Below, piece by piece: positions 11,325 to 22,490 of a stretch of DNA of 43,119 nt. Source of the DNA: Candidatus Gygaella obscura (GTDB lineage: Bacteria > Omnitrophota > Gorgyraeia > Gygaellales > Gygaellaceae); the NCBI GenBank assembly GCA_030765485.1, contig JAVCCR010000011.1, forward strand, positions 1 to 43,119, in the 5' to 3' direction. Below the pieces are notes generated by a model. The model saw only the letters and a program-made list of their open reading frames with translations. It made no database searches and was not told the DNA's origin. The position numbers were made by a program, and so were the translations under genes. Position 1 is the first letter of the stretch; every line of letters starts with the position of its first letter.

Positions 11325-12428
11325 ATGGCACAGGTTAGTTTAAGAAACGTAAGCAAAATATATCCGCCTGATGTAAAGGCAGTGGATAATATTAAGTTTG
11401 GTGTAGAGAATAAAGAATTTATGGTGCTTTTAGGTCCGTCTGGATGTGGCAAATCCACTACTTTAAGGATGATTGCTGGGTTAGAAGATATTACCAAGGG
11501 AGATATCTTTATTGCAGATAAGTGCGTTAATAACATTCCTGCTAAGGATCGTAATATCGCTATGGTGTTTCAAAATTATGCGCTTTACCCGCATATGACC
11601 GTTTTTGAAAATATGGCATTTGGTCTGAAGTTGCGTAAGTATCCGAAGTCAGAGATAAAATCCAGAGTCAATGATGCAGCGGATATTTTGGGGTTAAAAA
11701 AACTTTTAGACAGAAAACCCAAGAAGCTTTCCGGTGGAGAGCGTCAGCGTGTTGCTGTAGGAAGAGCGATCGTAAGAAAGCCCACTGTGTTTTTGTTCGA
11801 TGAACCTTTAAGTAACTTGGATGCTAAACTGCGTGTACAGATGAGAACCGAGATTAACAAACTTCATTTACGGCTTCAGACAACGATGATTTACGTTACG
11901 CATGACCAGACCGAGGCCATGACTATGGGTGATAGAATTACAGTGATGAAAGGCGGCACGCTTCAGCAGCTGGGTGATCCTTTAACCATATATGATAGGC
12001 CTACAAATAAATTCGTTGCTGGTTTTTTAGGTACTCCCCCGATGAATTTTATGAATGGTAAAATCATCAAAAAAGAAAACAGGCTTTATTTTGACGAAGG
12101 AAAATTCCAGATTAAGTTAAATGAAAAGATGTATGAAAAACTTGATGGATATGTGGGTAAGGATATTATTTTTGGTGTAAGGCCGGAAGATGTATATGAT
12201 AAGCTTTTTACTTCTCAGCCAGCGGCAGAGAATATTATAAAGGTTAATTGTGAAGTGGTTGAGCCTATGGGTTCCGAGGTGTATTTACATCTTAATACAG
12301 GGTTGCATCATTTTATCGCCCGTGTTGGTTCGCACAATAAGCCGCCAATAAACCAGGAGATGGATCTTGTAATCGACATGAGCAAGGTGCATTTCTTCGA
12401 CAAGGACACAGAATCGTCAATTGTCTAG
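11325..12428 (+). CDS. sugar-type ABC transporter ATPase (UgpC/MsmK/MalK-like)
   Basis: 367-residue ATPase of the carbohydrate-importer class. Visible motifs: Walker A GPSGCGKST, Q-loop VFQNYALYPHMTV, signature LSGGERQR, Walker B and D-loop VFLFDEPLSNLDAKLR, and H-loop YVTHDQTEAMTMGD. A C-terminal TOBE regulatory domain follows FVAGFLGTPPMNF. Such ATPases often serve several sugar importers encoded elsewhere. No permease or binding protein is nearby, so the substrate cannot be told. The stop overlaps the next gene by 8 bp. Confidence 0.93.
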   Translation: MAQVSLRNVSKIYPPDVKAVDNIKFGVENKEFMVLLGPSGCGKSTTLRMIAGLEDITKGDIFIADKCVNNIPAKDRNIAMVFQNYALYPHMTVFENMAFGLKLRKYPKSEIKSRVNDAADILGLKKLLDRKPKKLSGGERQRVAVGRAIVRKPTVFLFDEPLSNLDAKLRVQMRTEINKLHLRLQTTMIYVTHDQTEAMTMGDRITVMKGGTLQQLGDPLTIYDRPTNKFVAGFLGTPPMNFMNGKIIKKENRLYFDEGKFQIKLNEKMYEKLDGYVGKDIIFGVRPEDVYDKLFTSQPAAENIIKVNCEVVEPMGSEVYLHLNTGLHHFIARVGSHNKPPINQEMDLVIDMSKVHFFDKDTESSIV

Positions 12429-13668
12429 ACTAAAGGATAAAACCTTTTTTATCCTTATTCTTCTTTCTTGCCTTTTGACTGTAGTTATCTTAGCTCAAAA
12501 GGCCAATCAAGAAATTTACTTTGTATTAGGCCTGGATCTGCTGCTAGTTATTTTTATCCTCTTAAGAAAAAATCTTATCTTAAAAAAAGAAATTCCTCTA
12601 TCTTTAAAAATCGAAAAGGTTTCAGAAAAAATAAATCTATTAAAAATCAGTAATGTTGATTTGTATAATTTTAATGAATCTATAAAGGAAAGAATCAGTA
12701 ATTATGAGTCCCTCGGTAAGGTTCAGGAAGATTTATCTTCCGTTAATACGGTAGAAGAGATTGTTTCTATTATCACAGATGCTGGTTATAGTTTATTGGC
12801 AAAGTCAAAGGCAAGATGTTTACTGTATTTAGTATCACAAAAAGACCAGAGGTTGTTGCTTGCAAAATCAAAACCAGGAGAAAATAATTCCCGAAATTGT
12901 TATACTGCAGATTTATTCAATGAATGGGTGATGGTTAAGATGGCGCCTTTATTGGTGACTAACATAGAAGACGATTTTCGTTTTGATAAAGACAAAATAA
13001 GTAATGCGGGCAGTTTTTCATCTTTGATTAGCGCTCCCTTGATGCGGGAAAACCGCTTTTTAGGCATAATCAGATTAGACAGCAGAGAAAATAATTTTTA
13101 TAGCCAGGAAGATTTACGTCTGTTAGATGCTTTAGCAGATTTATCTACAATCTCTTTGGAAAACGCTATTTTATTTACGGAGATGGAAAGGCTTTCTTTA
13201 CAGGATGGGCTTACCGGACTTTATTTAAGAAGATACACGGATATTATTTTAGAGGGTTGTTTTGCAAAAGGAAAAGCCAATAAAGAAAACTTTTCTGTGG
13301 TAATGATTGATATAGATAATTTTAAGCGTTGTAATGATCATTTTGGCCATATTGCTGGAGATATGGTTTTGAAAAATATCAGCATGTGGTTAAAAGAGAC
13401 ATTTTCCGAGAAAGGGTTTGTTTTAGGGCGTTTTGGAGGCGATGAGTTTATTATTGTCGGTTGCGGGTATAATAAGAAAACAATTGATAATTTATTGTTT
13501 GAGGCAAGGGAAAAAATTAATATGCAGAGCTTGATGCTGCGTAATCAGGAAATAAAAATGGATATCTCTTTCGGCGTTTCCGAATACAATAAACAATTCG
13601 AATCTGTGCAAGAACTTATTGCTTTAGCTGATAAAAGGCTTTATACAATGAAGAAAATGAAGAAATGA
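12421..13668 (+). CDS. membrane-anchored GAF-GGDEF diguanylate cyclase
   Basis: Predicted to make cyclic di-GMP from two GTP. The 415-residue protein starts at TTG 12421, overlapping the ABC gene by 8 bp. Two hydrophobic segments (residues ~8-27 and 33-48) anchor it, then come a short coiled coil, a GAF-like sensor domain (~100-245) and a GGDEF domain (~260-415). The active motif is intact (RFGGDEFIIVG), with DGLTGLYLRRY at the domain start and IDIDNFKRCNDHFGH as metal and substrate site. There is no RxxD inhibitory site at the usual place, so product inhibition through that site is not expected. Confidence 0.92.
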   Translation: MSRLKDKTFFILILLSCLLTVVILAQKANQEIYFVLGLDLLLVIFILLRKNLILKKEIPLSLKIEKVSEKINLLKISNVDLYNFNESIKERISNYESLGKVQEDLSSVNTVEEIVSIITDAGYSLLAKSKARCLLYLVSQKDQRLLLAKSKPGENNSRNCYTADLFNEWVMVKMAPLLVTNIEDDFRFDKDKISNAGSFSSLISAPLMRENRFLGIIRLDSRENNFYSQEDLRLLDALADLSTISLENAILFTEMERLSLQDGLTGLYLRRYTDIILEGCFAKGKANKENFSVVMIDIDNFKRCNDHFGHIAGDMVLKNISMWLKETFSEKGFVLGRFGGDEFIIVGCGYNKKTIDNLLFEAREKINMQSLMLRNQEIKMDISFGVSEYNKQFESVQELIALADKRLYTMKKMKK

Positions 13669-14660
13669 TTATTTATCTAGTTATAATTTTTCAGATATTA
13701 GCTATTGTAATCTTTTTCGAGCGGATGATGAATGGTAACATCATGATCTTGAAAGATAAATATAATTTGCTTACTGTTGAGCTCAATGAATTAATGAAGA
13801 AATCATCTTTTTTAGAAGATGAAAAAAAGCAATTCAAGCAGAGAAAGCAGCATATCTCTACTATTTATGAAATTGGAAAGTCTCTTGTACGTTATATGAG
13901 TAAAGAAGATATAGTGAGTTTGCTTAAGGATCAATTGAGACATAATGGAATAGTTTTTGACCGGGTGAATCTCCAGGAGGGGTTATCCGGCAGCGCTTAT
14001 TCTAAAGACAGGGAAGTTTTTCCGCTCATCGCACAGGATAAAAAAATCGGTTATCTTGTTTTTGAAGGGTTGGACAAAGATTATGTTAACGATGTAACTA
14101 TGTTAGCAAAACGATTGGCCTTAAGTATAAGACGTTTTAAGTTGTATCGAAACGTTCAGCATCTTGCCATAACCGATTCTTTAACCAGAACTTTAAGCCG
14201 TAGTTATTGCCTGGAGCGATTAGATAAAGAATTAGGTAGGGCTAAGAGGTTGGGTTTTAGTCTTTCTGTTGCTATGGTAGATTTAGATAATTTTAAAACC
14301 TATAATGATAAATATGGTCATATTTCCGGGGATAAGATTTTAAAAGAGCTTTCTTTTATTATGAAGCAGGCTTTAAGGAACGTTGATTTTATTGGTAGAT
14401 ACGGAGGAGAGGAATTTCTTATTGTCATGCCAGAGGCAGACTATAAAGGCGCTAGGTTTGCCTTGGAACGTATCAGAAGCCAGATAGCTTCTCATGTAAT
14501 TGATTTTTTTGAAGATAGAGTTAACCTTACGATAAGCGTTGGGGTTGCGACATTTCCCGTCGATAGTCAAGATTTCAGCGAATTGATTGAGCAGGCCGAT
14601 AAGGCCTTGTACCGTTCGAAGAAAAGCGGAAAGAATAAAGTCACTTTTTTCGGTTTGTAA
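13665..14660 (+). CDS. membrane-anchored GGDEF diguanylate cyclase with I-site
   Basis: Second predicted diguanylate cyclase, 331 residues, overlapping the first by 4 bp (ATGA). It has one N-terminal membrane segment (residues ~2-19), a coiled coil (~35-65), a small GAF-like region (~65-155) and a C-terminal GGDEF domain. The active motif is the GGEEF variant (GRYGGEEFLIVMPEA). RNVD lies five residues upstream, matching the RxxD product-inhibition site. IEQADKALYRSKKSGKN is the usual C-terminal ending. The two cyclases differ in sensor size and feedback, so they may respond to different inputs while feeding one c-di-GMP pool. Confidence 0.94.
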   Translation: MIIYLVIIFQILAIVIFFERMMNGNIMILKDKYNLLTVELNELMKKSSFLEDEKKQFKQRKQHISTIYEIGKSLVRYMSKEDIVSLLKDQLRHNGIVFDRVNLQEGLSGSAYSKDREVFPLIAQDKKIGYLVFEGLDKDYVNDVTMLAKRLALSIRRFKLYRNVQHLAITDSLTRTLSRSYCLERLDKELGRAKRLGFSLSVAMVDLDNFKTYNDKYGHISGDKILKELSFIMKQALRNVDFIGRYGGEEFLIVMPEADYKGARFALERIRSQIASHVIDFFEDRVNLTISVGVATFPVDSQDFSELIEQADKALYRSKKSGKNKVTFFGL

Positions 14661-21609: not shown

Positions 21610-21638
21610 TTGAAAATCTAGATAATATATGCTATACT
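21610..21638 (+). promoter_or_regulatory. promoter P1 of the riboswitch leader
   Basis: TTGAAA (21610-21615), 17-bp spacer, TATACT (21633-21638) with an extended -10 TG at 21630-21631. Predicted transcription start is near 21645, placing the riboswitch close to the 5' end of the RNA. Confidence 0.82.
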
Positions 21639-21664
21639 TTTTATAGATTAGAGGTAAAGAAAAA

Positions 21665-21696
21665 TTCGCGTAAAGCGAAGCCGCAATAAAAGCGGC
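21665..21696 (+). promoter_or_regulatory. two tandem hairpins 5' of the riboswitch
   Basis: TTCGC-GTAAA-GCGAA (21665-21679) and GCCGC-AATAAAA-GCGGC (21680-21696) are two perfect 5-bp hairpins with no base between them. The second ends right before the conserved GGCAAACC of the aptamer. They are not part of the usual GEMM-I consensus, whose 5' flank is normally A-rich and unpaired. Confidence 0.6.
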
Positions 21697-21773
21697 GGCA
21701 AACCCATTCGTAAGGTGGGGACGCAAAACTAAAGGGCCTTATATATAAATTATCCATAAGGCAGCCAGTTACC
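21697..21773 (+). promoter_or_regulatory. GEMM-I riboswitch (cyclic-di-GMP-I class)
   Basis: The aptamer shows GGCAAACC (21697-21704), a helix capped by a GTAA GNRA tetraloop (21710-21713), the conserved GGACGCAAA (from 21719), a second helix GCCTTAT/ATAAGGC (21736-21742 and 21756-21762), then AGCC and GTTACC (21768-21773). Conserved blocks and spacing match the family. A G occupies the place expected to read c-di-GMP; cGAMP-type variants usually have A there. My alignment at that position is by eye. An intrinsic terminator lies 12 nt downstream, so control by transcription termination is likely. The downstream gene is the pilin. Confidence 0.9.
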
Positions 21774-21785
21774 AAAAGTAATGTG

Positions 21786-21815
21786 ACCTATTCCTGCGAG
21801 GGGGATAGGTTTTTT
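21786..21815 (+). terminator. intrinsic terminator of the riboswitch expression platform
   Basis: ACCTATTCC (21786-21794) pairs with GGGATAGGT (21802-21810), nine base pairs including one G-U, followed by a run of T (21810-21815). It lies just after the aptamer and before any coding sequence. A small competing hairpin TTAC-CAAAA-GTAA covers the aptamer's 3' strand and could couple ligand state to termination. Confidence 0.85.
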
Positions 21816-21830
21816 AAATTTTTAGAGGTT

Positions 21831-21845
21831 TTTCTTGACAAGAAA
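21831..21845 (+). promoter_or_regulatory. 15-bp palindrome, operator-like, over the P2 -35 box
   Basis: TTTCTTG-A-CAAGAAA is a perfect inverted repeat with a single central base. Its centre lies inside the TTGACA -35 hexamer of P2, where a bound dimeric regulator would block RNA polymerase. I did not recognise it as the site of a known regulator, and no candidate regulator gene is adjacent. Confidence 0.5.
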
Positions 21846-21862
21846 GGAGGGATTGGTAAAAT
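21835..21862 (+). promoter_or_regulatory. promoter P2 of pilA
   Basis: Perfect TTGACA (21835-21840), 16-bp spacer, TAAAAT (21857-21862), predicted start near 21869. It lies downstream of the riboswitch terminator and would give a riboswitch-free pilA transcript with a leader of about 137 nt. Its spacer contains AGAAAGGAGG (21841-21850), a ten-base match to the ideal Shine-Dalgarno, with no suitable start codon after it apart from a three-codon TTG frame. Confidence 0.7.
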
Positions 21863-22005
21863 AAATAGTAATGAGGTAGGATTTATGCAAGAAGTACAAT
21901 TGCTTTAATTTAGCAGAAAAAAAAGGAATAATCATAAATCTTGCTAAAGAAGCAATTAAAAAAAGCGTAAGATCTAATCAGCCTCAGAAAGGGGGCGTAA
22001 TTGAA

Positions 22006-22431
22006 ATGAGAAACAGAAAAGGTTTTACCTTAGTCGAAATCATGATCGTTGTGGCAATTATAGCTTTGTTAGTCGCTATTGCCGTACCTAATATTGCTGC
22101 CCAGCGTAGAATCGCCAATAACTCAGCAGCAGCAGGTAATTTAAGAAGTCTGCTTTCTGTATTAGAAACTTATAATACAGCTGAAGGAGTGTATCCAGCA
22201 GTATTGACTTCTTTAGTTGGTGGTTCCAATCCGTATATCAGTACGGTTCCAACAGGTACGACAGGAGGCTATGTGTGGTCTCCAACAACTTCGACTACCA
22301 GTTATTCTTTGCAGGCATGTCCAAGTACAACTTCAACAGGTATTCACTGTTGGAGGATTCGTACAGGTGGTATTATGGAAAGATGTGCCGTAGCAGGTAC
22401 AAGTTGTAGTGATTACACAACACAGTATTAA
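22006..22431 (+). CDS. pilA: type IV major pilin-like prepilin
   Basis: Prepilin of 141 residues with a class III leader MRNRKG cut before FTLVEIMIVVAIIALLVAIA, including the Glu at position +5 needed for assembly. The short leader and AGGGGG ribosome site support ATG 22006. The globular part has a Ser/Thr-rich segment (WSPTTSTTSYSL, PSTTSTG) and four cysteines, two of them near the end where a disulfide loop is usual. It probably forms the pilus fibre or a pseudopilus. Expression is likely controlled by the upstream c-di-GMP riboswitch and P2. A strong terminator follows, so pilA can be expressed alone at a high level. A pseudopilin role (type II secretion) is less likely given pilMNOPQ downstream. 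Confidence 0.92.
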   Translation: MRNRKGFTLVEIMIVVAIIALLVAIAVPNIAAQRRIANNSAAAGNLRSLLSVLETYNTAEGVYPAVLTSLVGGSNPYISTVPTGTTGGYVWSPTTSTTSYSLQACPSTTSTGIHCWRIRTGGIMERCAVAGTSCSDYTTQY

Positions 22432-22456: not shown

Positions 22457-22490
22457 AAAGGCGGTACCCGTAAAAGGTATCGCCTTTTTT
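22457..22490 (+). terminator. intrinsic terminator after pilA
   Basis: AAAGGCGGTACC (22457-22468) pairs with GGTATCGCCTTT (22476-22487), 12 bp with one G-U pair and a 7-nt loop, followed by a T run to 22490. It isolates pilA from the rest of the pilus cluster. Confidence 0.92.

Follow-up and report, generated by a model that had tools for sequence, protein, structure and literature searches.

A c-di-GMP-I riboswitch before a type IV pilin gene of Omnitrophota is followed by a conserved second promoter that may bypass it

Does a c-di-GMP riboswitch in the leader of a type IV pilin gene decide whether the pilin is made, or can the gene be transcribed around it? The question is raised by the pilA locus of Candidatus Gygaella obscura, which lies within positions 1–43,119 of contig JAVCCR010000011.1 (the whole stretch analysed, hereafter the window) and whose leader a first-pass annotation had read as a GEMM-I aptamer followed by an intrinsic terminator, through which the second messenger would switch pilin transcription. 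The RNA part of this reading held up well. The covariance-model scan that had been named beforehand as a check returned a match to RF01051 over the full model (positions 1–87) at 21687–21776 of the forward strand, at 56.0 bits against a gathering cut-off of 35 (E = 2e-8 in the scan of the 43-kb window, 2e-10 in a focused scan), while our own covariance model R1 gave the aptamer 61 bits. Apart from RF01051, no Rfam family scored at gathering level in the window, and the Rfam scan yielded no other credible RNA family in the pilA leader; the class II c-di-GMP riboswitch (RF01786) had no match in the window or in a focused leader scan, and RF03167 (c-di-GMP-I-GGC), which hits the same genomes, was set aside because RF01051 matches the window aptamer better. 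Judged by its sequence, the aptamer is thus a genuine member of the known class c-di-GMP-I.

The remainder of the leader, all on the forward strand, is laid out around this aptamer. Promoter P1 (TTGAAA-17-TATACT, 21610–21638), recognised by its consensus match and kept in the congener, is predicted to start the riboswitch RNA near 21645, and the predicted intrinsic terminator, GACCUAUUCC...GGGGGAUAGGUU with a T tract, spans 21785–21811 and is likewise kept. A ribosome-binding site, AAAGGGGG (21988–21995, identical in the congener), precedes pilA (22006–22431), which was correctly annotated as a type IV pilin: it carries the prepilin signature GFTLVEIM and matches PF07963 (N_methyl, E = 1e-9), and its product is 87% identical in the congener and 40–50% identical in other Omnitrophota. 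The interval originally assigned to the element, 21610–22006, was apt; a second promoter and two hairpins (21665–21696), described below, had been omitted. Since a predicted terminator (22457–22487) stands behind pilA, the gene is probably transcribed alone; prepilin, PilM, PilN, PilO and secretin genes lie 3' of it. The congener keeps the stems, the terminator, both promoters and the whole gene order. It does not conserve a small upstream ORF (ATG at 21887), which we therefore rejected as a leader element. Near the ribosome-binding site, alignment also reveals a stem AUCUUGC/GUAAGAU (21938–21973), in which a G-U pair of the window is a G-C pair in the congener. The phylum proposed earlier is supported, the nearest named pilin relatives being almost all Candidatus Omnitrophota; the pilin leader on an order-mate contig (G049:C13) is identical to that of JAOAET010000028.1, a Candidatus Omnitrophota MAG.

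GEMM-Ib aptamers, which sense cGAMP, are marked by an A at the position of G20. In the window aptamer the ligand-contact residues are canonical in the RF01051 alignment, G20 being 21697, A47 21725 and C92 21772 (numbering after PMC3764141). As the G20 position guides ligand selectivity in GEMM-I (PMC9262584), the G found there argues for c-di-GMP rather than cGAMP as the ligand. A cGAMP-sensing GEMM-Ib aptamer was rejected on this residue and because both neighbouring cyclases retain the guanine-site Asp. These cyclases, which the annotation had linked to the riboswitch, are real GGDEF genes, one with a GAF-GGDEF architecture, the motif RFGGDEF and no RxxD inhibitory site (12421–13668, forward strand; PF00990, E = 5e-31), the other with the motif RYGGEEF and an RNVD inhibitory site (13665–14660, forward strand; PF00990, E = 1e-42). 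Neither has the Ser by which Hypr enzymes replace the guanine-recognising Asp, the position of which we take to be that known from PleD and GSU1658; Asp stands there in both proteins (NDHFGHIAGD and NDKYGHISGD). The two genes end 7.0 kb 5' of the leader, a proximity that is weak as an argument because the genome holds 11 GGDEF matches and the gene order is the same in the congener, so that we treat them as context only. The genome also has seven matches to MshEN, which is known as a domain by which pilus and secretion ATPases bind c-di-GMP.

The fold departs from the textbook aptamer in several places. The 176-nt leader RNA was more stable than 200 of 200 shuffled versions (z = -3.8). Helix P2 is closed by a GUAA loop (21710–21713, GYRA type) and helix P3 is without the 11-nt receptor, consistent with a described type of c-di-GMP-I riboswitch that has a GYRA loop and no receptor (PMC11218506). 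A canonical helix P1 was not found in the window aptamer, as C93 and the bases after it have no canonical partner, and a GGUAA/UUACC helix suggested by the window fold was discarded as a P1 candidate because it is absent from the congener; Cd1 of Clostridioides difficile is likewise without a detectable P1 (PMC9262584). Two hairpins are inserted 5' of the core: hp1 (UUCGC/GCGAA, 21665–21679), whose stem recurs with a different loop in the congener, and hp2 (GCCGC/GCGGC, 21680–21696), which by fold and alignment abuts G20 where J1/2, normally A-rich, would stand. In almost every one of 53 aligned relatives the strand leading up to G20 is rich in A; the window has the two hairpins there instead. 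Because their stems are kept while the loops changed in the congener, the stems look selected. Ligand binding may be weakened in the window aptamer, given the lack of a canonical helix P1 and the displacement of J1/2 by hp2. Extra hairpins within GEMM-I aptamers also occur at several other Omnitrophota pilin loci (L186, L189, L182, L216 and L213), in helix P2 or its internal loop, unlike the insert of the window aptamer at J1/2.

What bears most directly on the opening question lies behind the terminator. A second promoter, P2 (TTGACA-AGAAAGGAGGGATTGG-TAAAAT, 21835–21862, forward strand, 16-nt spacer), matches 11 of 12 consensus letters, a score reached in 0.1% of shuffles of this stretch, and is present in the congener with a 17-nt spacer; its transcripts would start at about 21869 in the window. 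A covariance model built from 53 relatives was run over pilin loci of the order and of named genomes, and we assembled 23 non-redundant Omnitrophota pilin loci with an aptamer (one taken from a separate survey); at these the aptamer lies on the pilin's strand, 119–386 nt 5' of its start. A promoter with at least 10 of 12 consensus letters follows the terminator in 20 of the 23 (1.9 expected), compared with 5 of 86 GEMM-I loci before non-pilin genes that served as control (2.3 expected), and a P1-like promoter is present at 20 of the 23 (5.1 expected). The arrangement that runs from P1 through aptamer, terminator, P2 and leader to pilA thus recurs in Omnitrophota. Promoters of the P2 type are also found at many pilin loci without a riboswitch, and a strict version of the motif, TTGACA-N3-8-AAAGGAGGTGRTA, occurs exactly once per genome in 18 of 128 genomes (reversed control, 0); 17 of these sites are just before a listed pilin, and the 18th, in G010, proved on direct reading to precede a pilin as well. 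The spacer of the pilin promoter contains GAAAGGAGGTGA, which together with the next bases is the complement of the 16S rRNA 3' end (window 21835–21862; 18 genomes, L265–L282) and would be absent from RNA started at its own promoter. The spacer sequence could be a DNA-binding site, or serve ribosome binding on read-through RNA.

A conserved, pilin-specific promoter downstream of the terminator sits badly with the proposal that c-di-GMP would switch pilin transcription as such, and the earlier interpretation is to this extent only partly supported. From P2, pilA can in principle be transcribed around the riboswitch, which would then govern only transcripts from P1. The riboswitch is probably able to tune pilin expression without being its sole on/off control.

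The riboswitch stands at 23 of 82 scorable pilin loci, and c-di-GMP-I riboswitches as a class are found in 119 of 128 genomes of the order, with up to 12 per genome. When mapped on a pilin tree, which has few columns, the riboswitch label requires 16 changes, at least five of them forced by well-supported branches, which points to repeated gain or loss of the unit. Most GEMM-I elements of the order precede non-pilin genes, among them those for small HRVVTFLxREExDFLDKLGKDALFS proteins, glycoside-hydrolase-like FPKDFLWGAATSAYQVEGDN proteins, FKSSFKxWIRVVAF proteins of about 600 aa and adhesin-like LPEVxxVxSGDVxF proteins. Two further leaders upstream of pilins, L161 and L163, have no GEMM-I match, yet in both a P1-like promoter is present along with a CCTATTC terminator, whose arm is complementary to a strand of the leader (p = 0.007 and 0.012, respectively); possibly another RNA element occupies the aptamer slot there.

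How the aptamer could act on its terminator is suggested by the group as a whole. Across the 23 pilin loci the 5' arm of the terminator is complementary to the 3' strand of helix P2 together with the pocket next to it, at a combined p of 4e-13 when compared with shuffled arms. A locus's own arm and strand pair better than cross pairs (p = 0.007), the clearest duplex being that of L124 (11 bp), GUUAGGGCGCAAA against UUUGCGCCCUAAA. Among the other GEMM-I loci of the order that have a terminator, it is separate from the aptamer in 111 of 133 and overlaps it in 22. Removal of similar rows left 38 separate-terminator non-pilin loci, in which the complementarity recurs (combined p = 1e-9) and exceeds that of reversed arms (p = 0.008), a control that is itself slightly non-random (1.5e-3); the advantage of own over cross pairs is not significant there (p = 0.07). 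At a single locus the complementarity between arm and helix P2 does not reach significance, with p = 0.20 for the window and 0.19 for the congener. When the window RNA was folded stepwise, the pairing of helix P2 fell from 0.86 to 0.07 at 21806, where its 3' strand holds the terminator 5' arm, and at 21811 the terminator wins. The minimum-energy fold at full length contains aptamer and terminator together, so termination could be constitutive in the window.

The reading that we favour, and consider reasonably probable, is that P2 provides riboswitch-independent pilin expression, basal or dominant, on top of which the riboswitch would decide the read-through of P1 transcripts and so an extra, c-di-GMP-dependent share of pilin. 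In the ligand-free RNA the 3' strand of aptamer helix P2 would pair with the terminator 5' arm as an antiterminator; c-di-GMP would hold helix P2 together, leave the arm free and thereby allow termination, turning P1 read-through OFF at high c-di-GMP. If the intermediate seen in stepwise folding permits read-through, then ligand would suppress it. For the window itself, group evidence and folding are what predict this direction, and there are many GEMM-I riboswitches whose sequence does not reveal which way they switch. Taken by itself, OFF has about an even chance of being the direction of P1 read-through, ON is a weaker though serious contender, and what remains goes to no switching at all.

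The ON direction is at home in a more classical arrangement, in which pilA is chiefly controlled by the riboswitch, c-di-GMP switches the gene on by antitermination and the match at P2 is idle. Precedents for pili are of this kind, namely the Geobacter pilM GEMM-Ib element (PMC9262584) and the class II element of C. difficile pilA1 (PMC6200980); moreover, in the folds of both window and congener, pairing of the 5' leader with the terminator arm is possible as long as the 3' arm is still to be made. As a general rule, however, an antiterminator formed by 5' leader and terminator arm fails, since across 21 loci the two are no more complementary than expected by chance (combined p = 0.87), and an idle P2 is hard to square with a promoter that is pilin-specific and conserved with and without the riboswitch. 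We therefore regard such a gate as unlikely.

Still less probable, in our estimation, is that the short RNA left by termination is the real product, an independent small RNA that binds c-di-GMP and acts as a sponge or in trans, with little read-through and pilA expressed from P2. The merRNA of Bdellovibrio, an abundant c-di-GMP aptamer RNA without a cis target, offers a precedent (PMC3627812), and at full length the terminator is far more stable than its competitors. A pure sponge, however, needs no particular neighbour, whereas the aptamer recurs before pilins at the frequency given above, with terminator arms that co-vary with it. Least probable of all, we think, is transcriptional interference, in which read-through from P1 across P2 would hinder initiation at P2 and make pilin levels inverse to read-through: P1 and P2 are co-directional and 225 bp apart in the window, and the arrangement is conserved, yet the read-through transcripts would encode pilA too.

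The genome contains a second GEMM-I aptamer (L154:6507–6593), and the congener has both copies. It lies upstream of a series of genes for small proteins resembling class III signal-peptide pilins (L154:6642–11209), whose matches to the class III signal peptide are weak and below cut-off, with a TadE-like match further on. Its terminator uses the 3' strand of the aptamer's own helix P3, so that the two folds are mutually exclusive and c-di-GMP binding would prevent termination, an ON-type layout like that of Geobacter metallireducens pilM (PMC9262584). Extending our favoured reading to both copies, we put forward tentatively a two-promoter pilin module, with P2 and its anti-SD-complementary spacer GAAAGGAGGTGA at its core, to which about a quarter of loci would have added an upstream OFF GEMM-I riboswitch and which, alongside an ON second copy, might exchange pilus types.

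Measured against known systems, the window aptamer has in common with Vc2 and Vc1 of Vibrio cholerae and Bc1 of Bacillus thuringiensis the core, G20/A47/C92, a GNRA loop on helix P2, helix P3 and a cis position before a gene for a surface structure; it differs from them in its GUAA loop without the 11-nt receptor, the double hairpin at J1/2, the want of a clear helix P1 and the downstream bypass promoter. Control of pilins by riboswitches had been ascribed to a few clostridia and related cases; riboswitches act on pili outside the clostridia too, as in the pilM operon of G. metallireducens, where a GEMM-I element controls type IV pilus genes via transcription termination (PMC9262584). That element senses cGAMP, lies before pilM and is an ON switch whose terminator excludes the aptamer, whereas the window has G at G20, a pilin as its gene, and a terminator that can coexist with the aptamer. 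Such coexistence, and the predicted competing antiterminator and OFF logic, are shared with Cd1, which controls flagella and builds its antiterminator from the aptamer 3' strand with C87 rather than, as predicted for the Omnitrophota group, from the 3' strand of helix P2 (PMC9262584). Cdi-2-4, which precedes pilA1, the gene of the major type IV pilin, also responds to c-di-GMP but belongs to an unrelated RNA class (class II) and is an ON switch, with no bypass promoter reported in the accessible part of that study (PMC6200980). Already known are GEMM-I elements upstream of pilus genes, a class II riboswitch upstream of pilA1, and platforms of both the ON and the OFF kind; what would be new are the bypass promoter and the P2-strand antiterminator, a variant on a known class. 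We found no earlier description of a recurrent two-promoter riboswitch architecture and no paper joining 'riboswitch' with 'Omnitrophota' or 'Omnitrophica', a search of the open-access literature that gives only a weak negative.

A conserved promoter behind a riboswitch terminator is a caution that aptamer plus terminator is not always an on/off gate. The group-wide complementarity between terminator arm and helix P2 suggests a switching mechanism that can be tested on many RNAs of a phylum for which there are no genetic tools, because these RNAs can be transcribed in vitro. Finally, the two GEMM-I copies predict that two pilus systems would respond in opposite ways to c-di-GMP; if this is true, the signal would exchange one pilus type for another.
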